Shown: positions 1-25,092 of the stretch, one piece after another
Numbering within the stretch: position 1 is the stretch's first letter
How the letters are laid out: each line of letters opens with the position of its first letter
DNA from: a virus
Strand: one strand, 5' to 3'
Virus record (IMG/VR): IMGVR_UViG_3300025000_000201
Coordinates: 1 to 42,459 of that record
DNA: 42,459 nt
The notes under the pieces: model-generated
What the model saw: only the letters and a program-made list of their open reading frames with translations
Told to the model about the DNA's origin: nothing
Database searches by the model: none
Position numbers and translations under genes: made by a program

Positions 1-980
1 AAGTAAGTTCTCATAAACGCTGGGTCTCTGTTCTGTGGTATTGCTCCAACCCAAACTTCCGGTACTGCATAGAGCCCAAGGGCTGCACAGATACAGAGTT
101 TCTTATCGTAACTCAGGTACTGCTTAGTGTCTATATCCCAGATACCAAAGACGAAGAAGTGTAATTCCGAGAGTCCATACTTATTCCCTTGAACCCCTGG
201 ACCCACGATCTCCCCTTGGATAGCTAACGAAAGGTTGTTCTTCTTACAATACTCAGTGAGTCTCTCTTCGATGCTATAGATACCAGAGATGCTCCACCAA
301 GTGCTCCCATCCCTGCACTTCTTCCAGACATTACGGGAGCATACACCGTATAGCCCTCGGTTAAAGAGACCGTTTCTAAACTCTCGGTTATAAAAGTAAG
401 TAGCACTCTGCCCATCTAGTTTCTCAGTACATACTATCTGCTTACCGTAGAACGGAGTGAAGCTAGTTACGTTCTGCACTCGTTCCTCATCGGTCTTTGG
501 AAACCACTCAGGCCATGAACCAGACGCCCTGGGGTAGAGGTAGCTATGAATCCTTCGGCCTATTCCAAATCTCAGTAACCACTTATGGGGCGGTGGTTTT
601 CTTGAGTAGCACTGAGTAGTCGAGTCCTTGGAGCCAGAGACTTCATAGAGCTTCACTCCGAGAGTTTCAGTAACATCTGCTCCAAGTGCCCAAGACTCAA
701 CAAGCCCGACTGTCTCCAGAGACAAAGCGAGACCTTGACTGAGTTCTCCCCTGAGCTTTATAGTCTTCACTCTGAACTTCCTGGGTCTCAGAAATTCTGA
801 CCAAGATGCCTCAGGGAGTACAGAGTCTATTTCAAAGTAAACGCATAGACTCCCTGGTACGAACTCCCCTCTCTTCACTACACACTGCCACCCATCTATA
901 CGAGCTAACTCTATGTTGTCTGCTCCGGGGATATTGGCAATGCTACTGATCTCTCTAACCGTTGCTAGTTTCCGAGACAT
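1..980 (-). CDS. RNA ligase, DRB0094/TIGR02306-like (C-terminus outside window)
   Basis: This open frame of 326 codons runs off the left edge, so the C-terminus is missing. The start at 980 follows GGGAGGAGCTA. The N-terminal part (about residues 5-90) resembles the OB-like domain of the Deinococcus DRB0094 RNA ligase family (DNIELA, GEF-x-PGSLCVYFEIDSVLP, TIKLRGELSQGL). The nucleotidyl-lysine motif I is EKLDG with Lys187, and a motif IV-like GEIVGPG lies near residue 257, followed by HFFVFGIWD. Enzymes of this family seal RNA ends through a lysine-AMP intermediate. With six phage tRNAs in the same genome, tRNA repair is a plausible role, but that is inference. A dispersed palindrome at 711-724 encodes LSLET at the end of the N-domain. 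Confidence 0.88.
   Translation of the reverse strand, partial: MSRKLATVREISSIANIPGADNIELARIDGWQCVVKRGEFVPGSLCVYFEIDSVLPEASWSEFLRPRKFRVKTIKLRGELSQGLALSLETVGLVESWALGADVTETLGVKLYEVSGSKDSTTQCYSRKPPPHKWLLRFGIGRRIHSYLYPRASGSWPEWFPKTDEERVQNVTSFTPFYGKQIVCTEKLDGQSATYFYNREFRNGLFNRGLYGVCSRNVWKKCRDGSTWWSISGIYSIEERLTEYCKKNNLSLAIQGEIVGPGVQGNKYGLSELHFFVFGIWDIDTKQYLSYDKKLCICAALGLYAVPEVWVGAIPQNRDPAFMRTY
711..724. repeat. Dispersed palindrome site 1
   Basis: TGTCTCCAGAGACA, inside the RNA ligase gene (encodes LSLET). Confidence 0.9.
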
Positions 981-998: not shown

Positions 999-1175
999 TC
1001 AATAGTTCCCATGTAGTTCCACTATAGCTTCCACTGGACAAGCATCTTTACAACTCCCACAGCCAGCACAGTTATCTTGGTCTATCACAGCATAGACTAT
1101 CATGCTTATGGCACCTAGTGGGCATGTGTCAAGACACTTCTCGCATCCCATACAATCAGTGGTTATGGTAATCAT
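999..1175 (-). CDS. 2[4Fe-4S] ferredoxin
   Basis: The protein has 58 residues with two complete CxxCxxCxxxCP clusters (Cys8/11/14/18 and Cys36/39/42/46), the pattern of bacterial-type two-cluster ferredoxins. The start is set at 1175 because AAGGAGG lies 5 bases upstream; a longer in-frame extension to 1226 lacks a site and would run through the upstream gene. It overlaps that gene by ATGA. It lies about 0.9 kb downstream of the nrdJ end in the same direction, so it might donate electrons to the reductase or to a neighbouring redox protein; that link is inferred. Ferredoxins are uncommon in phage genomes. Confidence 0.9.
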   Translation of the reverse strand: MITITTDCMGCEKCLDTCPLGAISMIVYAVIDQDNCAGCGSCKDACPVEAIVELHGNY

Positions 1176-1381
1176 TGAACCTCCTTGGTATCTTCTTTCT
1201 TCTTCTCTAGCATTTTGATTATGCAATCAATACATATCTCTTCATGATGCCCTAATGAATCAAGGTTACAACACAATATCTTAAGCGTCATACCTGATAT
1301 ACCAGATATCCCACAGGATATTCCCTGTGAACTGTAGTACTTTATTTCTGCCTTGCATATATCACAGTAAACTAATCTCAT
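1172..1381 (-). CDS. Cys-rich small protein (zinc-ribbon-like)
   Basis: The 69-residue protein has a CxxC near the N-terminus (CDIC), a central CC pair and a second CxxC (CIDC) before a Lys/Glu-rich tail, so it probably binds zinc or another metal. The start at 1381 is chosen for the AGGAGG four bases upstream. It overlaps the Tat-signal gene upstream by 20 bases and the ferredoxin downstream by 4 bases, so the three genes are translationally linked. No family is recognised. Confidence 0.75.
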   Translation of the reverse strand: MRLVYCDICKAEIKYYSSQGISCGISGISGMTLKILCCNLDSLGHHEEICIDCIIKMLEKKKEDTKEVQ

Positions 1382-1715: not shown

Positions 1716-2081
1716 TTATGGCATCTCCTGTGCTAAGTTTATCTCAGTCCACTTACCCTCTACTTTTCCCTCTACTCTAAGGTTCTGAGGCTTCATGGAT
1801 TCCTTGACTTTTTCTTCGAGAGTCTTACCTGACAATATCTCTTGTATCTTCTTGTTATGCCATACTACAAACAGGGGGTTCTTAACTAGGCTGCTGAATG
1901 CTTCCTTTATATTCGCTGGTCTCTCCCTGTTGGACTGACCGGTGGACATGGCCCCAGACTCTTTGTGCTTTATCCTAACACAGTTCTGGTGCTTATTTCT
2001 ATACTGCCCACCAGCTCCAGTACCAGAGAAGAACTCAATGTCTAGGTTTTTCTTTCCTACTGAAAACAGTAACTCTTTCAT
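1716..2081 (-). CDS. Peptide chain release factor-like protein (GGQ domain only)
   Basis: The 121-residue protein contains GTGAGGQYRNKHQNCVRI with Gly24-Gly25-Gln26, the catalytic GGQ loop that triggers peptidyl-tRNA hydrolysis on the ribosome. It ends in a basic segment. There are no codon-recognition domains, so it resembles stand-alone RF-1-domain proteins such as ArfB/YaeJ or PrfH-like factors. The start at 2081 has AAGGAGG with a 5-base spacer; the upstream in-frame extension reaches into nrdJ. A role in rescuing stalled ribosomes during infection is the likeliest reading from the family. Confidence 0.85.
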   Translation of the reverse strand: MKELLFSVGKKNLDIEFFSGTGAGGQYRNKHQNCVRIKHKESGAMSTGQSNRERPANIKEAFSSLVKNPLFVVWHNKKIQEILSGKTLEEKVKESMKPQNLRVEGKVEGKWTEINLAQEMP

Positions 2082-2091
2082 GGTATCCTCC

Positions 2092-5000
2092 TTAAATGTC
2101 GCAGCTACCACCTGCACAAGCGTACTCCTGCATACCAGTAGTGGTATCCTCTGTTTCTACAAAGAGTTCCCAAGCTATCGAGGGGAATCCCTCAGTGGCT
2201 TGTTTATACTGATCCTCAGTTATCTCTTCATATGGAGCGTTTTCATAGACAGACTCTCCATCTGCCCTAGGGAAGAAACTAAGTCCTCCAATAGAATCCC
2301 AGTGATCCCATACCCACTGAGCTATAGCGAAGTATTCATTGTCGCTATAGTAAATAGTCTGACTAGGATTCCCATCGCACCAATGATCTCTGTACACTAA
2401 CCAAAGTTCAAGTTGTTCCATTGCACTCATATCCCTAGTGGTTACTGAGTTCGCTGGAGCAGCTACATAGAAGCTGAATATGTACTTGTCTCCAGAGACA
2501 ACATAGGGGACTCCCTGGTCAACTAAAAAGCCAGTGAGAGAATCCTTGCTATCTTGAGTAACTCTTCGTATGTAGTACCTAGCGTAACGTGGGTGAATGC
2601 CACTCGAAGAGTTAACAAGTTGAGAGACTGTCCCAGATGGTTTAACTAAAGTTAATTGTTTGCTTGGCTGAATCCCAAGCTTATCTGCCCACTCTTTATT
2701 CGTGGCATGTGCTACCTCCTTGAGTAGTGCCAATGTATCTTCTAACTCATTGTCACCAATGTTATACTTTGATTTATTTATACCAAGAATTCCCCATCCA
2801 CTTCTTCCACTCATAACCGGATGATCCATGATACCAGTAAGTGACACCCCTAGTAACCGCTCTTCTTCTGCATTGTCTTTCCAGACCTTACGAAGATATC
2901 GGAAGTTAGTTAGAGTAGACTGAAGTGTACCGAGTATCGTAGCTAATCTAACCTTCTCCTTTAGGGTTTCCAGGGTATCCTCTGGTCTTACAATTACTTC
3001 TGTTAAATTGCATAAACCACCGCTGTCCCGAAGGATTGCCTCACCACAGTTTGCAGCAACTACACCCTCTGTTATCAGAGTGTTAGAATCATACACAGAT
3101 ATATCATATACATCCGTCACTGGTCCAACAGATATATTAACAACCTTAACTCCTTGATTTTTTGTATTTGTCTTATAGATGTCCGGGAGTGGTACTATAA
3201 TTTTAGGCATACCTCCCGTAGTTTTTATAAACTTTCCATCACTCCCTTTAATCATGTGGTTATTTTCACACTCATACCTAGTTAAAGTTGAATGTGTGGA
3301 GTGGTGTAAAGCTTCCAGGTTACTTATTGAATTATCATATGTGTCTCCATTTATATGATGAACATCGAACTCTGGGAGAAGTGGTTCATTCACTCCCTCA
3401 TAAACTAAACGATGTTCCATCCTATAAGACTCATCTGTAGATAATTTTATACCCGAGTATCTTGCTCCTCTCCTTACACGATAGAGGCCATTAAGTTTAT
3501 CTCCTACTTTTAAATCTTTAGCTTCAACCCACTCATTCTTTCCTTTATCAATGCCTTTATCTGGTCCCAGTTTAAACACTTTATGATCTGGAGTAACAGT
3601 TAATACTCTCCCAGTATTCAAGTGTATACGAATAGTTTCAGCATTCTCTTTAGTTTTCCAAGATGGTGTTGCCAAAGAGATACAGAGATTCCCAGCTTTA
3701 TCCATTGAATAAAGATAAGTAGGTTCAACTATATCTTTTATCTTCATCCTGCCATTCACTGTTTCAACCTCAGTATCTGGATGAAAGCAGGGATTTAGCA
3801 AGTAGTCCCCTTTGTACTCTCTCCCGCAACTCTCAGCCTTTGCTCTCAGAGCTTCTTTGTTTACTATCCCTCGCTCCCCGGACTTAGAGATGTAAAGGTT
3901 TCTCCACTCTTTACTAAAGCTGTCTAAATCCGGCTTCTCAGTATAAGCCACTGAGTTGTTAGCCAGTGTCCGGTAGGGGGCTGTGGAGTACCAGTCACCA
4001 TTTTTTGCTCGGCGCATACGGTCGTCAGTTAAATTTGAGAAACTTATCGTGGCACTCCTGCGTACTCCTCCCGCAATGATCGCATCAGCAATCTTGCAAC
4101 AGATGTCATGGACTTCCAGTGAATTCAGTTTCCGCTTTCCCTCTTTCACTGCTACTCTAAAAGTCCTAACGGTAAAAGACATGAGAGCCCCGAGAGGTTC
4201 AGGGCCACTAGCACGGCCTCCAAAGGTACGAAGTCGAGAGCCAGCAGGACGAATAGAGCTAAGGTCCCACTTAGGAATATTCCCGGAATAGAGCATAGAG
4301 ATAAGTTCTTTGTAACCAGTTGACCAGCCGATCTTACTGTCTTTGACTTTGATAACTGTCTCTGATTCATTAAGCTCCTCCGGTAAGTCCGGTAGCTGAT
4401 TGACATACTGTCGCTCTACTGAGAACCCAACTCCACACCCACAGCTCAGGAGATACATTATCTCATCAAAACACCTTGGGTGATTGATCGCTATGGCTGC
4501 ACAGTTTCCAGTAACTAATCCCCTTTCTAAAACAAAAGTATTTGTATCTGGGACTTCTGCACAAAATACTTCCTCTTGTATTTCTAGTTCTTTAACAGAG
4601 TCTATACAGAACTTAGATATCAATGGAATAAATTTGTCTCGCTTTCGTTTGATGAGGAAGTCCTCAGATGTGAGGGATGTTCTATCTATTGATATTGTAA
4701 AGGTTCTCCTGGTTCTAGTACCAAAATTAGTTTTACTTCCAAGCTCTCTCACGTTCTGAGCAACATACCCCCAACGAGCAGAGTGTTTTAAAAACCAGTT
4801 TGCATACTCCTCAGATAAGCACAAGGATACATGAGAATTTTTTCCAACATGACAATCTGCTGCAAGCCAACCTCGGAAGAAACCAACCATATAATCTTCG
4901 GTTTCATTATCATAATCTGGTAAATCTTTTAAATCGTGGGTCTTAGCGAAGTCAGAGAAAAGTTTAATTACAGGATCACCATTTGCAGAAGGTGGGTAAC

Positions 5001-5748
5001 TAATCCTAACTTCTGGTAAGAATTCAAAGTATTTAGAAAACTCTTCTTGGTCTTCGCATACTCTTATCATATAGCCTTTTACTCTTTTCTGTGAGTACTG
5101 TGTTGTACCATCCCCAAAGATAATACCATGTACACACCCTAATTTATAATCTATAGAGTCGGTATCAACATTTCTTTTATAGCTTGCAAAAGGTATTTTA
5201 GTCCCGCCCTTCCCAGGCTTTAGTTGGTCTGTTGAAAGCACATTCCCGTCTACATCAACCCATCTATGATTGCCTGTGCAATACATAGTATGCATCGTGT
5301 TTGAGTTCTTTTTTAGAACAACCTTTCTGATGCTCTGTTTGCCGTAGCATTTAAACTTTGCTTTCGTCCACTTAGAGTTTACATTAAGTACGGTTGCCTC
5401 CTTATCTTCCAAGGCAGAGATGGGAAGATACCCAAACTCTTTTGTTAACACCTTAGTAGTGCCAACGACTGGATTGAACCCGGATACGTTGTCCCTCTCC
5501 AACGCTGGCCCAGCAGTCATTAGAGCCCTCATGCTAGGCATGATATCCATACTCTTTACTGCTTTAATAAGAGGCTCCCACCCATTTCCAGAGGGAACAT
5601 CTGAGTCTACCCACCCTTGAAACTTATCTTGCATTAAGAAGAAACCGAAGTACCGATCTACTGTCTCTTCCCAAGTCTCCCTTCGCTTCTCAGAGTCAAG
5701 GTATCTAGCGTATTTACTAAGATGAATATATTTCTGAAGGTCATTCAT
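2092..5748 (-). CDS. nrdJ: Adenosylcobalamin-dependent (class II) ribonucleotide reductase with two inteins
   Basis: The precursor of 1218 residues would yield an enzyme of about 648 residues after removal of inteins at 93-415 and 654-900. Extein features match monomeric class II reductases of the Lactobacillus leichmannii type: RPAGSRLRTFGGRASGPEPL, GGVRRSA, NPC-GE (thiyl-radical Cys after the second intein), LCNLTEV, VKPSGTVSQL and a C-terminal CAGGSC redox pair. The enzyme makes deoxynucleotides from ribonucleoside triphosphates using B12. Each intein sits directly before a catalytic cysteine (Cys416 and Cys901 of the precursor). A dispersed palindrome at 2487-2500 encodes VSGDK near the C-terminus. 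The start has AGGAGAG upstream. Confidence 0.95.
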   Translation of the reverse strand: MNDLQKYIHLSKYARYLDSEKRRETWEETVDRYFGFFLMQDKFQGWVDSDVPSGNGWEPLIKAVKSMDIMPSMRALMTAGPALERDNVSGFNPVVGTTKVLTKEFGYLPISALEDKEATVLNVNSKWTKAKFKCYGKQSIRKVVLKKNSNTMHTMYCTGNHRWVDVDGNVLSTDQLKPGKGGTKIPFASYKRNVDTDSIDYKLGCVHGIIFGDGTTQYSQKRVKGYMIRVCEDQEEFSKYFEFLPEVRISYPPSANGDPVIKLFSDFAKTHDLKDLPDYDNETEDYMVGFFRGWLAADCHVGKNSHVSLCLSEEYANWFLKHSARWGYVAQNVRELGSKTNFGTRTRRTFTISIDRTSLTSEDFLIKRKRDKFIPLISKFCIDSVKELEIQEEVFCAEVPDTNTFVLERGLVTGNCAAIAINHPRCFDEIMYLLSCGCGVGFSVERQYVNQLPDLPEELNESETVIKVKDSKIGWSTGYKELISMLYSGNIPKWDLSSIRPAGSRLRTFGGRASGPEPLGALMSFTVRTFRVAVKEGKRKLNSLEVHDICCKIADAIIAGGVRRSATISFSNLTDDRMRRAKNGDWYSTAPYRTLANNSVAYTEKPDLDSFSKEWRNLYISKSGERGIVNKEALRAKAESCGREYKGDYLLNPCFHPDTEVETVNGRMKIKDIVEPTYLYSMDKAGNLCISLATPSWKTKENAETIRIHLNTGRVLTVTPDHKVFKLGPDKGIDKGKNEWVEAKDLKVGDKLNGLYRVRRGARYSGIKLSTDESYRMEHRLVYEGVNEPLLPEFDVHHINGDTYDNSISNLEALHHSTHSTLTRYECENNHMIKGSDGKFIKTTGGMPKIIVPLPDIYKTNTKNQGVKVVNISVGPVTDVYDISVYDSNTLITEGVVAANCGEAILRDSGGLCNLTEVIVRPEDTLETLKEKVRLATILGTLQSTLTNFRYLRKVWKDNAEEERLLGVSLTGIMDHPVMSGRSGWGILGINKSKYNIGDNELEDTLALLKEVAHATNKEWADKLGIQPSKQLTLVKPSGTVSQLVNSSSGIHPRYARYYIRRVTQDSKDSLTGFLVDQGVPYVVSGDKYIFSFYVAAPANSVTTRDMSAMEQLELWLVYRDHWCDGNPSQTIYYSDNEYFAIAQWVWDHWDSIGGLSFFPRADGESVYENAPYEEITEDQYKQATEGFPSIAWELFVETEDTTTGMQEYACAGGSCDI
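2487..2500. repeat. Dispersed palindrome site 2
   Basis: TGTCTCCAGAGACA, inside nrdJ (encodes VSGDK). Confidence 0.9.
3049..3789 (-). other. Intein 2 of NrdJ: Cys1 intein with HNH endonuclease
   Basis: This is precursor residues 654-900 (247 aa), starting P|CFHPDTEVETVNG and ending VVAAN|C. Block B is TVTPDH, and block F is VYDISVYDSNTL. An HNH-type endonuclease core, VHHINGDTYDNSISNLEAL, lies at about residues 796-814. The penultimate residue is Ala instead of the usual His, and the block F His position appears to be Asn. Such exceptions are known in active inteins, but splicing efficiency cannot be judged here. The insertion is in the NPC-GE loop, exactly before the cysteine that carries the thiyl radical. 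Confidence 0.9.
4504..5472 (-). other. Intein 1 of NrdJ: class 3-type (Pro1, Trp/Cys/Thr signature) with LAGLIDADG endonuclease
   Basis: This is precursor residues 93-415 (323 aa). It begins N|PVVGTTKVLT and ends VTGN|C. The first residue is Pro, not Cys or Ser. Block B is TGNHRW (Thr158, His161, Trp163), block F is VFCAEV with Cys396 where Asp is usual, and block G is T-G-N with Thr413. This is the Trp-Cys-Thr triplet defined for class 3 inteins, in which the block F Cys makes the first branched intermediate. Between the splicing blocks are two LAGLIDADG-type motifs, GIIFGDGT (about 208) and GWLAADCHV (about 293). The insertion point is immediately before the extein cysteine equivalent to Cys119 of the Lactobacillus enzyme. 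Confidence 0.88.
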
Positions 5749-21535: not shown

Positions 21536-23143
21536 CTATTGCCCCTTTGACGCTTCATTATCCAACCCAGAAACCTTATACATCTCCATCACTGCCATTC
21601 TCTCGTTATCATCAGCAATCTTGTTGATGAAAGCCAAGTTGACCGCAGTGAGCATAGGAAGTTTCATCTTAGATACCATATCCAATATAGCAATGAGACC
21701 CCTTGGGGACATAGTGAGAGCCAGTTCCCCGGACTTGTAAGCGTTCCTAATAAGCCCAGCGAACTTCACCAGCTTACGGATCACTGGTTTCCTGACTCCA
21801 GTGAACTTATGCTTCAGCATCTCTACTTCATCATCTTCCTTCAGGTAGTCGAGATGAGCGTTGATACTGATCCGATCCAGCATACTCGTATCCTGAATCT
21901 GAGTAGCTGCAAACTTCTCCATGGAATCCCCAGTTCCCTTGACGTTATCAGTGAGGAACATCTGGAACTCTGGAGCTGGCCTAATGATCTTATCCGCAGA
22001 AGTCCCAGGCATATCATCTATAGTCAGGTAACCGTTCTTCTCATACAGATGCTGCATAGCCATAGCGATATGAGGGGGAATCTTGAATACTTCATCAATC
22101 GTAATCATGAAACCACCCATGAGCCCTTGGGGGAGGAGACCGTACTTGAACTCCATACCTCCCTCAGATGCCCAAGGGAATCCCAGGAAACTGGAGCTTT
22201 CCAAGTCGCCTCTACCACCGAGTCTCATATATGGCTGCCTAAGATGAGCTGCAAACTGCTCTACAGCAGTGGTCTTCCCTGTCCCCGGAGGGCCAGTAAT
22301 CAGCATCTTTTCCCCCAACAAAAGGGCAACCACCATACCTTCGAGTACCTCTGTATCCCAGAGGTAGTCAGGATTAATAGCTGGAATATGCTGCCTCACT
22401 GCTTCCGGGAAGTGAGTTTCAGCATATACTGGGATGTCATAGTCAGATCCAGAGAGAGGGAGCTTTCCGCCAGTGATTGTGGAGAGCTTAATTACAGTTT
22501 TAGGGGCTGGAGCATGTGTCTTAGAAGCCCGTTTCTTGGGCGTCTTAGTTTCTGTCTCTGGAGACACTTCGGAGACCACTGGAATCTCTGGTTCCAGAGC
22601 AGCAGTCTCCTCTTTCTCTTTGGCTTCTCCAGGCACTTCAATAATGAATTTGCACTTAGCAGCTATCTGAGAAGCAATAAGATTCACATGCTCCTTAGCG
22701 ATATCTTCGTCTACTTCTGCATCACTCATGTAGTCGGATACCACATCACTAAGGATATCCCGAGAAGGAGCGTGGAATTTCCCACTAGCATCTACACACT
22801 TCTTAAGTTCCTCCATGACAGTCCACTGAGCGGAATTCAGAGTGACTGTCTCAGATACTACTGGAACCGTTGGGGTACCAGTAGCCTCTACAGCTTTGCA
22901 CTTATCAAAAGGGATAAGCACCTTTTTCCCAGTTCCGTCTGTCCTACACAGATACGAGCCAGAGCTCTTTCCAACTACCTCAAAGCTGGCTCCAGTCTTG
23001 AAGCCGAAGTAATCAGTGGTCAATACTACTCTCATAAGTTTTCCTCCGTTACTTTGTGGTTCCTCTGATTCTTTGGTGAACCCGTTGTTACCAAAGAAAA
23101 GCTCGTTTAACTCGTTAGCCCATGAATTAACAGTATCACTCAT
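21536..23143 (-). CDS. MoxR/CobS-like AAA+ ATPase
   Basis: The 535 residues end in an AAA+ module with Walker A GPPGTGKT (284-291), Walker B MITIDEV (346-352) and sensor-like FLTDNVKGTGD. The N-terminal 220 residues carry small folded parts and a disordered Ala/Pro/Lys linker. The palindrome at 22553-22566 encodes VSPET in that linker. It overlaps the HExxH/vWA gene by ATGA. Such pairs act as chaperone-like remodelling or metal-insertion machines (CobS/CobT, MoxR/vWA). A direct role in B12 synthesis is not shown; the B12-dependent NrdJ makes it worth noting. Confidence 0.87.
   Translation of the reverse strand: MSDTVNSWANELNELFFGNNGFTKESEEPQSNGGKLMRVVLTTDYFGFKTGASFEVVGKSSGSYLCRTDGTGKKVLIPFDKCKAVEATGTPTVPVVSETVTLNSAQWTVMEELKKCVDASGKFHAPSRDILSDVVSDYMSDAEVDEDIAKEHVNLIASQIAAKCKFIIEVPGEAKEKEETAALEPEIPVVSEVSPETETKTPKKRASKTHAPAPKTVIKLSTITGGKLPLSGSDYDIPVYAETHFPEAVRQHIPAINPDYLWDTEVLEGMVVALLLGEKMLITGPPGTGKTTAVEQFAAHLRQPYMRLGGRGDLESSSFLGFPWASEGGMEFKYGLLPQGLMGGFMITIDEVFKIPPHIAMAMQHLYEKNGYLTIDDMPGTSADKIIRPAPEFQMFLTDNVKGTGDSMEKFAATQIQDTSMLDRISINAHLDYLKEDDEVEMLKHKFTGVRKPVIRKLVKFAGLIRNAYKSGELALTMSPRGLIAILDMVSKMKLPMLTAVNLAFINKIADDNERMAVMEMYKVSGLDNEASKGQ
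22553..22566. repeat. Dispersed palindrome site 11
   Basis: TGTCTCTGGAGACA, in the CobS-like linker (encodes VSPET). Confidence 0.9.
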
Positions 23144-25092
23144 ACCAAAAACTCCTTTAGTACATTGAACAGCACCATATCCAAGTCTTCTGGATCATTC
23201 ACTGCACAGTGGTGTTTGTAGTACCTCTTCACAACGTCTGTGGTCACTCCGATTCCGACTAGATCGATGGGAGTCTTTGTTTCAATATCGCTACAGACTT
23301 TCTTCAGGTACCGATCAGCATTACCACCATTCGCTCCACACGGAGAACCATCAGAAAGGACAATAAGCAGCTTACGGTCTTCTTTTCGAGTCAGTAGCCG
23401 CTCCGCTGCATAGAGTATTGAATCCCCATCACAGTTGTAGTGCATATTGACCTGCTGAGATGACATAATATCTGTCATCATCTCTTTGGATACCCGTTTC
23501 CCATAGGGCTTAAAGACGTAGGTCGTCAGCTTATTGTGGGCAGTGAACCCAAGTATCTCATGCTCGATTTGAAGAGCAGTGAGAGTCTCATTTAACGCTA
23601 CTACACAAGCAGACCCAATAGCGTACTTGGAACCACTCATGGAACCAGAGCAGTCCAGCAAGAGTTCAACTGCTGAGTTCTTGTTGAGTCTGGAGCCGTC
23701 TTTCTTCTTGAATATCCGTGGAGTTGCCCCTGGAATCTTGTTACCAGAGTACACTCTATGAACATTCTTTGAATGGATTTTCCCTTGTGTCTGTCCATAG
23801 CTATACGTTGAAACTGACATGGTTTGGAGATACTTAGCCACTTGTTTTGATACTGTGGAGTTACCGATAGCAGTAACAATAGCTTCCTTCTGGCCCGCAT
23901 CTACTCTCTTCTCAGAGATGTCGATTACATCATGAGTCGGATAGGGTTCATACGGTCTGTTTCCACCATACTTTTCAACCTTAGTCTCTTCCATAGGAGC
24001 TGTCATTTTAACGGCTATGGCTTTCTTGATTGTCTCTAGTTGAGCTGAGGTAATCTGCTTGTCTTTCATCTCCCACTTAGCATCAATCAGCTTCTCGTTT
24101 CCCTCGGCGTTAGTGGGCTGTCCCCCATGCTCACCTTGGTTATGGTCAAAAGCAGAGTCAGGAGTGCCACTGTGATCCTTGACACCAGAGCCATCTTTGT
24201 TCTGGTTCCCTTGGCCATCTTGGCCCTCCCCTTGGCCCTCTTTAGGCTCTCCTTCACCTTCTCCCTCCTGAGGCTCTCCCTGGCTCTCTTGATTGCCTTG
24301 GCTCTGTCCCTGGCCCTCCTGAGACTTTCCCTGGTCCTCCTGAGACTTTCCTTTGCCGCTCCCTTGTCCGCTTGGCGGTGGTGGAGTATACCCGACGAGT
24401 TTGAGCAAGTCAAGTACGATACCAGCCTGTATCTCTGACTCTTGACCTGGGCTCTGGAGAACTGAGTCCATCCTTGTCTCCAGAGACAGTTTGTCGAACG
24501 CTTCGTAGAAGTCCTTATGGATACCACGGTACTGGGTCATATCCAGAGCTTCCATAGGATGTCCCATCCATTTCTGTCTGCACTCAGCAGTGTAAGCGAA
24601 CAGTGACAAGAACAGCTCATCAATGGGATCAGTGGATGCAGTGAGCAAGGGATCAACATAGGCACCCTTGCTCTTCTTCGTAAGGTCTAACTCAGCTCTT
24701 CCAGTGTGCATCAAGAACCGTCCGATAGAAAAGAGCTGGTCTATCCTGTCGAATTTACCGAACATTGCTTTCTCGCAATGAACGTCCATTAAAAGGTTGT
24801 TAATAAGACACACTAATTGGTCTTCGAAATTCAGATGCTTGGTCAGCTCAAAGTAAGACCAGTGCATTTTCTCCATAACATGAGAAAGCTCATGAAAACT
24901 GAGAAACCAAAAGAACTCTTCATCGTAGCCAGAGGGAGGCGGTAAGGTGATTTCACAGTGCCCCCGTTTCGTCATAGTCGCTTTTGGTTGATTACAGTAT
25001 GGCTCCCATCTTACGGAGATGTTCCCGGAAGTCGCCAGCGATACCAAGAACTTCTTCTGGGCTTCACTGGTTAGTCCAATAGGGATTGCCAT
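23140..25092 (-). CDS. CobT-like protein: HExxH domain plus von Willebrand A domain
   Basis: The 650 residues open with a helical domain containing FHELSH (His67, Glu68, His71), a zinc-peptidase-like motif. A low-complexity Gln/Gly/Glu stretch (about 240-330, with QEDQGKSQEGQG) follows, then a vWA domain with the MIDAS motif DCSGSMS (Asp480, Ser482, Ser484) and VLSDGSPCG. The partner is the MoxR-like ATPase encoded next. HELSH may be catalytic or structural. The palindrome at 24475-24488 encodes LSLET. CGGAGG precedes the ATG. Confidence 0.87.
   Translation of the reverse strand: MAIPIGLTSEAQKKFLVSLATSGNISVRWEPYCNQPKATMTKRGHCEITLPPPSGYDEEFFWFLSFHELSHVMEKMHWSYFELTKHLNFEDQLVCLINNLLMDVHCEKAMFGKFDRIDQLFSIGRFLMHTGRAELDLTKKSKGAYVDPLLTASTDPIDELFLSLFAYTAECRQKWMGHPMEALDMTQYRGIHKDFYEAFDKLSLETRMDSVLQSPGQESEIQAGIVLDLLKLVGYTPPPPSGQGSGKGKSQEDQGKSQEGQGQSQGNQESQGEPQEGEGEGEPKEGQGEGQDGQGNQNKDGSGVKDHSGTPDSAFDHNQGEHGGQPTNAEGNEKLIDAKWEMKDKQITSAQLETIKKAIAVKMTAPMEETKVEKYGGNRPYEPYPTHDVIDISEKRVDAGQKEAIVTAIGNSTVSKQVAKYLQTMSVSTYSYGQTQGKIHSKNVHRVYSGNKIPGATPRIFKKKDGSRLNKNSAVELLLDCSGSMSGSKYAIGSACVVALNETLTALQIEHEILGFTAHNKLTTYVFKPYGKRVSKEMMTDIMSSQQVNMHYNCDGDSILYAAERLLTRKEDRKLLIVLSDGSPCGANGGNADRYLKKVCSDIETKTPIDLVGIGVTTDVVKRYYKHHCAVNDPEDLDMVLFNVLKEFLV
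24475..24488. repeat. Dispersed palindrome site 12
   Basis: TGTCTCCAGAGACA, in the CobT-like gene (encodes LSLET). Confidence 0.9.

Follow-up and report, generated by a model that had tools for sequence, protein, structure and literature searches.

A Pro1 intein with a class 3-type signature in a viral class II ribonucleotide reductase, and its Cys1-bearing relatives

Introduction

Class 3 inteins are defined by a Trp-Cys-Thr triplet and by splicing that does not need a Cys at position 1 (Cys1) (PMC4031507, PMC5222942, PMC5050341). Published work describes them as forming a single clade (PMC3196547, PMC4031507); the class 1 inteins that bear Cys at block F:4 are reported to be polyphyletic (PMC3196547). 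The triplet has been described as confined to class 3, direct evolution of class 3 from class 1 is considered unlikely, and an attempt to graft the triplet onto a class 1 intein failed (PMC7664689). Here we analyze intein 1, a LAGLIDADG intein with a class 3-type signature, encoded in a ribonucleotide reductase (RNR) gene of the IMG/VR virus record IMGVR_UViG_3300025000_000201; "the window" refers to the whole stretch of DNA analyzed, positions 1 to 42,459 of that record (42,459 nucleotides). The question addressed by the family of this intein is how splicing initiated by Cys1 passes into splicing initiated by Cys F:4.

Of the 1701 class 3 inteins in a 2020 survey, 82.5% have a LAGLIDADG endonuclease; the survey also describes the class 3 intein AceL NrdHF, found in an RNR subunit (PMC7891396). 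AceL NrdHF resembles intein 1 in its class, its phage-like contig, its RNR subunit host and the lack of a His at G:6 or in block F (PMC7891396), but going by its description it is set apart as a split intein with Ala1 and Met in place of the triplet Trp, in a class Ib RNR beta subunit. A Cys following the intein (Cys+1) was known by 2016 from one class 3 intein, Bvi IcmO, in which it is unable to replace Cys F:4 (PMC5222942). Bvi IcmO thus shares the class 3 signature and Cys+1 with intein 1 (PMC5222942) and differs, compared by description only, in being a mini-intein in another host protein. In the literature searched, we found no earlier report of class 3 inteins in class II RNRs.

In our reading, intein 1 is probably an active and mobile LAGLIDADG intein that follows a class 3-type splicing route and arose when Cys1 was lost from an ancestor already bearing the triplet, separately from the classical class 3 inteins of helicases and terminases.

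Boundaries and signature of intein 1

The host gene encodes a monomeric class II (adenosylcobalamin-dependent) RNR, with matches to PHROG 367 (2e-145), PDB 1l1l (1e-27) and NCBIfam TIGR02505, the last at 3e-68, which falls below the whole-protein cutoff of that profile. Homology to the monomeric class II enzymes (RTPR) runs along the joined extein, which is 54.6% identical (counted over 654 aligned positions) and 51.8% identical to two intein-less phage class II RNRs (L090 and L091). At the insertion point of intein 1 these two proteins read ...AGY-NC..., and since they do, a Cys or Ser start is incompatible with the extein. Only a start at Pro93 gives an intein that ends in Asn together with an intact extein; a start at any other residue was considered and is ruled out by the N|C site of the intein-less homologs. 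In intein numbering Pro93 of the RNR is Pro1, Trp163 is Trp71, Cys396 is Cys304, Thr413 is Thr321 and Asn415 is Asn323, with Cys416 at +1. From its alignment, Cys416 probably corresponds to RTPR Cys119 and would then be the first of the active-site cysteines of the reductase.

Position 1 is Pro and not Cys, Ser or Thr, as class 3 allows and class 1 does not, and Trp71, Cys304 and Thr321 supply the Trp B:12, Cys F:4 and Thr G:5 of the class 3 signature. The +1 residue is Cys416 and not the Ser or Thr of that signature. Class 2 inteins are KlbA orthologs with Ser at G:6 (PMC4031507) and Ala1, to which the RNR host, Pro1, Gly G:6 and Cys F:4 of intein 1 do not correspond.

Compared on its own with Pfam, NCBIfam and PHROG profiles, intein 1 gave next to no score, and its membership is not assignable in that way; Pfam LAGLIDADG_3 was matched in 15 of 23 of its relatives. 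An AlphaFold model built with 23 sequences had a predicted local distance difference test (pLDDT) score of 93.4, and its top PDB matches were the intein endonucleases TliVMA, PI-SceI and PI-PfuI, with the I-DmoI fold also matched. The model, together with Asp121 and Asp206, gives intein 1 the intein fold and two-motif LAGLIDADG domain of LAGLIDADG inteins. RNRs are among its best viral matches.

An earlier note, made from the sequence alone, had placed the intein where we find it; the homologs confirm its ends to the base, the open reading frame and residue positions are exact, and Pro1, Trp163, Cys396, Thr413, Asn415 and Cys416 all stand as that note had read them. Its proposal that a class II RNR bears a class 3 signature, with neither Cys nor Ser at position 1, is supported, and so is Cys396, its choice for the start of splicing, as the likely first nucleophile. 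A better alignment that would move the start to a Cys or Ser, which the note had allowed for, did not emerge, with Pro93 fixed by the N|C site. The note had also thought a class 3 intein with a LAGLIDADG nuclease in a class II reductase unusual; the proportion found in the 2020 survey makes such a nuclease normal for class 3, and AceL NrdHF is a precedent in an RNR subunit.

A Pro1 clade with recent mobility

An IMG/VR contig (L007) carries an intein with 99.7% DNA identity to intein 1 (3 differences in 969 nucleotides), while its extein flanks show 77-82% DNA identity to those of the window. The two inteins differ by 1 synonymous change in 323 codons, against 35 in the next 85 extein codons. 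A near-identical intein within divergent flanks, with the match ending 15 and 17 nucleotides outside the intein, argues that intein 1 was recently moved by homing, the two short identical stretches (Table 1) likely being parts of the target.

Scans of viral contigs with family alignments recovered more Pro1 inteins in the identical position (L010, L011, L012-L018, L095 and L107; L009 is the L007 contig again, and the match values of L011 equal those of L010). In all, about ten Pro1 copies besides intein 1 share the class 3 signature. Nine Pro1 sequences were aligned, that of the window and eight others with 47-53% identity to it. All nine have Pro1, Val2, His69, Trp71, Cys304, Thr321, Gly322, Asn323 and both endonuclease Asp residues, and each is followed by Cys+1; Pro1, the triplet, Gly and Cys+1 are likewise kept in L095 and L107. 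Because the catalytic set is common to nine copies, Pro1 is a stable state and not a single mutation. The clade is also marked by Val2, by Cys65, where 24 of 32 Cys1 relatives have Ala, and by Asn311, where 15 of 32 have His; these three are candidates for changes compensating for Pro1.

One member of the clade, L017 (IMG/VR 3300044801_000208), has three inteins in a single class II RNR gene: one of the Pro1 triplet type, one of the class 1 type with Asp F:4, and one of the Cys1 triplet type ending in THN, at a third site.

Relatives that combine Cys1 with the triplet

Searches with tblastn and scans recovered relatives with Cys1 in class II RNRs, in class III RNRs (NrdD), in other genes and in bacterial DnaG primases. 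The closest in setting are L102-L105, which are 42-45% identical and occupy the identical class II RNR site (...AGYN|C or ...CGYN|C); another class II RNR example is in Thermobifida phage P318 (L001). NrdD examples, L004-L006 among them, occur in Klebsiella phage FBKp34, Morganella phage MP1, Vibrio phage V6Aob and gut phages. Across these groups, DnaG included, the inteins share with intein 1 the triplet, Gly G:6, Cys+1, the LAGLIDADG domain and in some cases the site, but unlike it they retain Cys1.

The first scan selected on Cys F:4, a residue that is therefore not fairly countable there, and conservation was counted in a subset of the second scan, 55 loci with the endonuclease motif HG..GDG and without EVFCAEV. 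Trp B:12, Cys F:4 and Cys+1 are each present in 54/55, G:5 is Thr in 48/55 and Ser in 5/55, and G:6 is Gly in 42/55. As these loci were picked by the endonuclease motif alone, the triplet in them is not due to chance. Position 1 was called as Cys at 45 loci and as Pro at 2, with start-calling errors at the remaining 8, of which 7 have Cys on inspection, L166 being the exception. Overall, Cys1 is present in almost all of the approximately 100 relatives examined, nearly always together with the complete triplet.

Inteins with Cys1 plus the triplet also occur at the zinc-finger site of DnaG primase (FxHC|...|CFGC; L172-L224) in Nocardioides, Geodermatophilaceae and sphingomonads. In 2011, Tori and Perler reportedly described three inteins of a mixed type in which Cys1 or Ser1 accompanies the triplet (Catera Gp206, Nocardioides TOPRIM and T. 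fusca 2914), at least one of which is said to have spliced as class 3 when the mixed-motif inteins were tested. Our DnaG inteins from Nocardioides are probably of this TOPRIM type, and the mixed state is on that account not new.

These relatives may already splice from Cys F:4, with Cys1 idle, in which case its loss from the Pro1 clade left the mechanism unchanged. Such an explanation fits both anatomy and tree, competes only with the idea of a mechanistic switch (below), and draws support from the complete triplet in nearly all Cys1 relatives. An idle residue would nevertheless be expected to drift, as position 1 does in classical class 3 inteins (A, G, D, R, P or C), and here Cys1 is almost always retained; we regard an idle Cys1 as possible but somewhat doubtful.

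Relation to classical class 3 inteins

Classical class 3 inteins were collected with a DnaB intein consensus as seed query, verified by its matches to 6rix, 6riy and 6bs8, with only database sequences used onward; a DnaE intein query gave no phage match. Like intein 1, the classical group (e.g. MsmDnaB1, 6bs8, and MchDnaB1, 6rix) has Trp B:12, Cys F:4 and Thr G:5, no required Cys1 and usually a LAGLIDADG domain. The 13 phage examples (DnaB, terminase, RecB-like and helicase) give the range of position 1 residues listed above, including Pro1 in the phage Violet terminase (L082) and Cys1 in Acidovorax phage ACF1 (L080). All 13 end in Thr-His-Asn followed by Ser or Thr, whereas intein 1 has Gly before Asn, and Cys+1.

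Trees were built from alignments with four trait columns taken out, the first of two splicing-domain trees (77 rows) excepted. On the splicing domain, with these columns in or out, the Pro1 inteins form one clade and the classical class 3 inteins another. In the full-length tree with 48 rows, Pro1 joins the Cys1-triplet inteins (97/95), and a single clade of Pro1 and classical class 3 is rejected by the approximately unbiased (AU) test (p-AU 0.0096). With 55 rows, Pro1 groups with L102-L105 and L108 (98/92), then with L109-L111 (98/94), within a triplet family (99/98) that is separated from classical class 3 by a 100/100 branch, and the joint clade is again rejected (p-AU 0.041). Profile comparison with hhalign gives the same order, the Pro1 inteins matching the Cys1-triplet inteins at 4e-74, class 1 RNR inteins at 4e-18 and classical class 3 inteins at 2.7e-8. 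As trees and profile comparison agree, an independent loss of Cys1 in the Pro1 clade is the most likely history. The earlier note had implied that intein 1 belongs to the phage-born class 3 clade of helicases, and had suggested comparison with class 3 profiles; the comparison upholds the signature but makes classical class 3 the most distant group, and trees and profiles alike place intein 1 with Cys1-bearing RNR inteins.

Several points weigh against an independent loss of Cys1 and a class 3-type route. When only the splicing domain is used (77 rows), a joint clade of Pro1 and classical class 3 is not rejected (p-AU 0.20). With 55 full-length rows, the test does not reject a clade made up of the Cys1-triplet inteins alone, which leaves Pro1 outside (p-AU 0.124). 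A single clade of triplet inteins of both kinds, as expected from one origin of the triplet, is not rejected either (p-AU 0.113). The trees are unrooted, homology to the query played a part in the choice of rows, and the groups received their names once the relatives had been seen. Finally, the sequences show the anatomy, boundaries, conservation, relatives and recent mobility of intein 1; splicing through Cys304, every chemical step and the direction from Cys1 to Pro1 are inferred.

That intein 1 is a classical class 3 member moved into RNRs would account for the identical signature, for Pro1 in the Violet terminase and for the splicing-domain result. The full-length rejections, the largest profile distance among all groups, and Gly G:6 with Cys+1 in place of His with Ser/Thr make this improbable.

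Inteins at other reductase sites

NrdA inteins at the NLC radical-cysteine site (L072-L076), carried by Salmonella phage Kenya-K36, Staphylococcus phage RP15 (L073), Vibrio phage eugene, ICP1 (L075) and Aeromonas phage PhAER-4, resemble intein 1 in Cys F:4 and, mostly, Thr-Gly before the last residue, but have Cys1, Phe or Tyr instead of Trp at B:12, and mostly a C-terminal Gln. At NPC sites, the same RNR genes carry inteins with Asp at F:4 (L012b, L017b) or with Phe B:12 and Cys F:4 (L022b, L024c). The B:12/F:4 states among RNR inteins are thus Phe/Asp, Phe/Cys and Trp/Cys with Cys1, and Trp/Cys with Pro1.

Proposed splicing route and origin

In the proposed route, Cys304 would attack the Asn92-Pro93 bond, forming a block F-branched thioester from which the N-extein would be transferred to Cys+1, itself an active-site cysteine of the reductase. 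Asn323 would then cyclize and the bond rearrange to a peptide. In the ancestor, the Trp-Cys-Thr triplet, the Gly preceding Asn, and Cys+1 were probably already in place, with Cys1 lost afterwards, in an event separate from the loss behind classical class 3.

Splicing could instead be of the class 2 type, with Cys+1 attacking the Asn92-Pro93 bond directly and Cys304 dispensable. The pairing of Pro1 with a strong Cys+1 nucleophile is in keeping with this, but we think it unlikely, given that Cys304, Trp71 and Thr321 are invariant across the Pro1 clade, that class 2 inteins are KlbA orthologs with Ser G:6 (PMC4031507), and that Cys+1 is no substitute for Cys F:4 in Bvi IcmO (PMC5222942). That intein 1 has decayed and lost splicing along with Cys1, as its lack of a position 1 nucleophile and Asn311 in place of the block F His might suggest, is very hard to reconcile with its recent spread, its position at a catalytic cysteine of the reductase and the same catalytic set in divergent copies.

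With class 3-type splicing after independent loss of Cys1 as the preferred account, a wider claim is that such splicing arose at least twice, and that in the RNR family a Cys1 intein gained the triplet and then lost Cys1 at a fixed site; here we see even chances. If this is true, the Cys1 and Pro1 versions of one intein display the step from class 1 to class 3, contradicting the view that confines the triplet to class 3 and holds a direct passage from class 1 to be unlikely (PMC7664689).

Host gene and neighboring genes

The RNR gene contains a second intein, directly before Cys901 (NPCGE; RTPR Cys408), where intein-less phage RNRs read ...NP-CGE or ...NP-CSE; the RNR gene of L007 is without it. 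The 3' end of the RNR gene is overlapped by a gene for a small release factor-like protein with an RF-1 domain (GGQ). Elsewhere in the window, genes for a CobS-like ATPase and a CobT-like cobaltochelatase adjoin, in a phage that also has a B12-dependent RNR. A short open reading frame encodes two ferredoxin-type 4Fe-4S cysteine motifs, and an RNA ligase gene lies at the window edge.

Table 1. Features of the reductase gene, intein 1 and other genes of the window (positions of the whole stretch)
Feature	Position	Strand	Description	Basis
RNR gene	2092..5748	-	1218 amino acids with two inteins, 648 once spliced	
N-extein	5473..5748	-	residues 1-92, C-terminal ...VSGFN	alignment with intein-less L090, L091
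Extein stretch identical to L007	5473..5487	-	15 nucleotides upstream of intein 1, likely part of homing target	
Intein 1	4504..5472	-	RNR residues 93-415, 323 amino acids, LAGLIDADG, class 3-type signature	
Pro1 codon	5470..5472	-	Cys in nearly all relatives	
Cys65	5278..5280	-	derived residue in 9/10 of Pro1 clade; Ala in most Cys1 relatives	
Block B His69-Arg70-Trp71	5260..5268	-	His B:10, Trp B:12	
LAGLIDADG endonuclease domain	4618..5175 (approximate)	-	Asp121 (FGDG), Asp206 (LAADC)	alignment, fold matches
Cys304 (block F:4)	4561..4563	-	proposed first nucleophile	sequence, clade alignment
Thr321-Gly322-Asn323	4504..4512	-	block G:5-7	sequence, clade alignment
Cys+1 (Cys416)	4501..4503	-		alignment with intein-less homologs, PDB match
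Extein stretch identical to L007	4487..4503	-	17 nucleotides downstream of intein 1, likely part of homing target	
Intein 2	3049..3789	-	247 amino acids, HNH type, Cys1 and Asp F:4 (class 1)	
Release factor-like gene	1716..2117	-		PF00472 (5e-11), PHROG 3122
CobS-like and CobT-like genes	21536..25092	-		
Ferredoxin-type motif reading frame	999..1226	-		
RNA ligase gene	3..980	-	OB-fold domain	PHA02142

Implications

The setting of intein 1 is unusual for the class 3 signature in its Cys+1, its Gly before Asn, its acceptor at an RNR active-site cysteine and its lineage apart from classical class 3. New to us are the breadth of the mixed Cys1-triplet state and the Pro1 clade nested among its bearers. 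Because the +1 residue is a required cysteine of the reductase, the family supplies many natural class 3-type inteins with Cys+1, and because close relatives at one site keep or lose Cys1, the step from class 1 to class 3 is testable by simple mutants. With its closest relatives at the site still bearing both cysteines, intein 1 preserves a trace of how one mode of splicing may give way to another.

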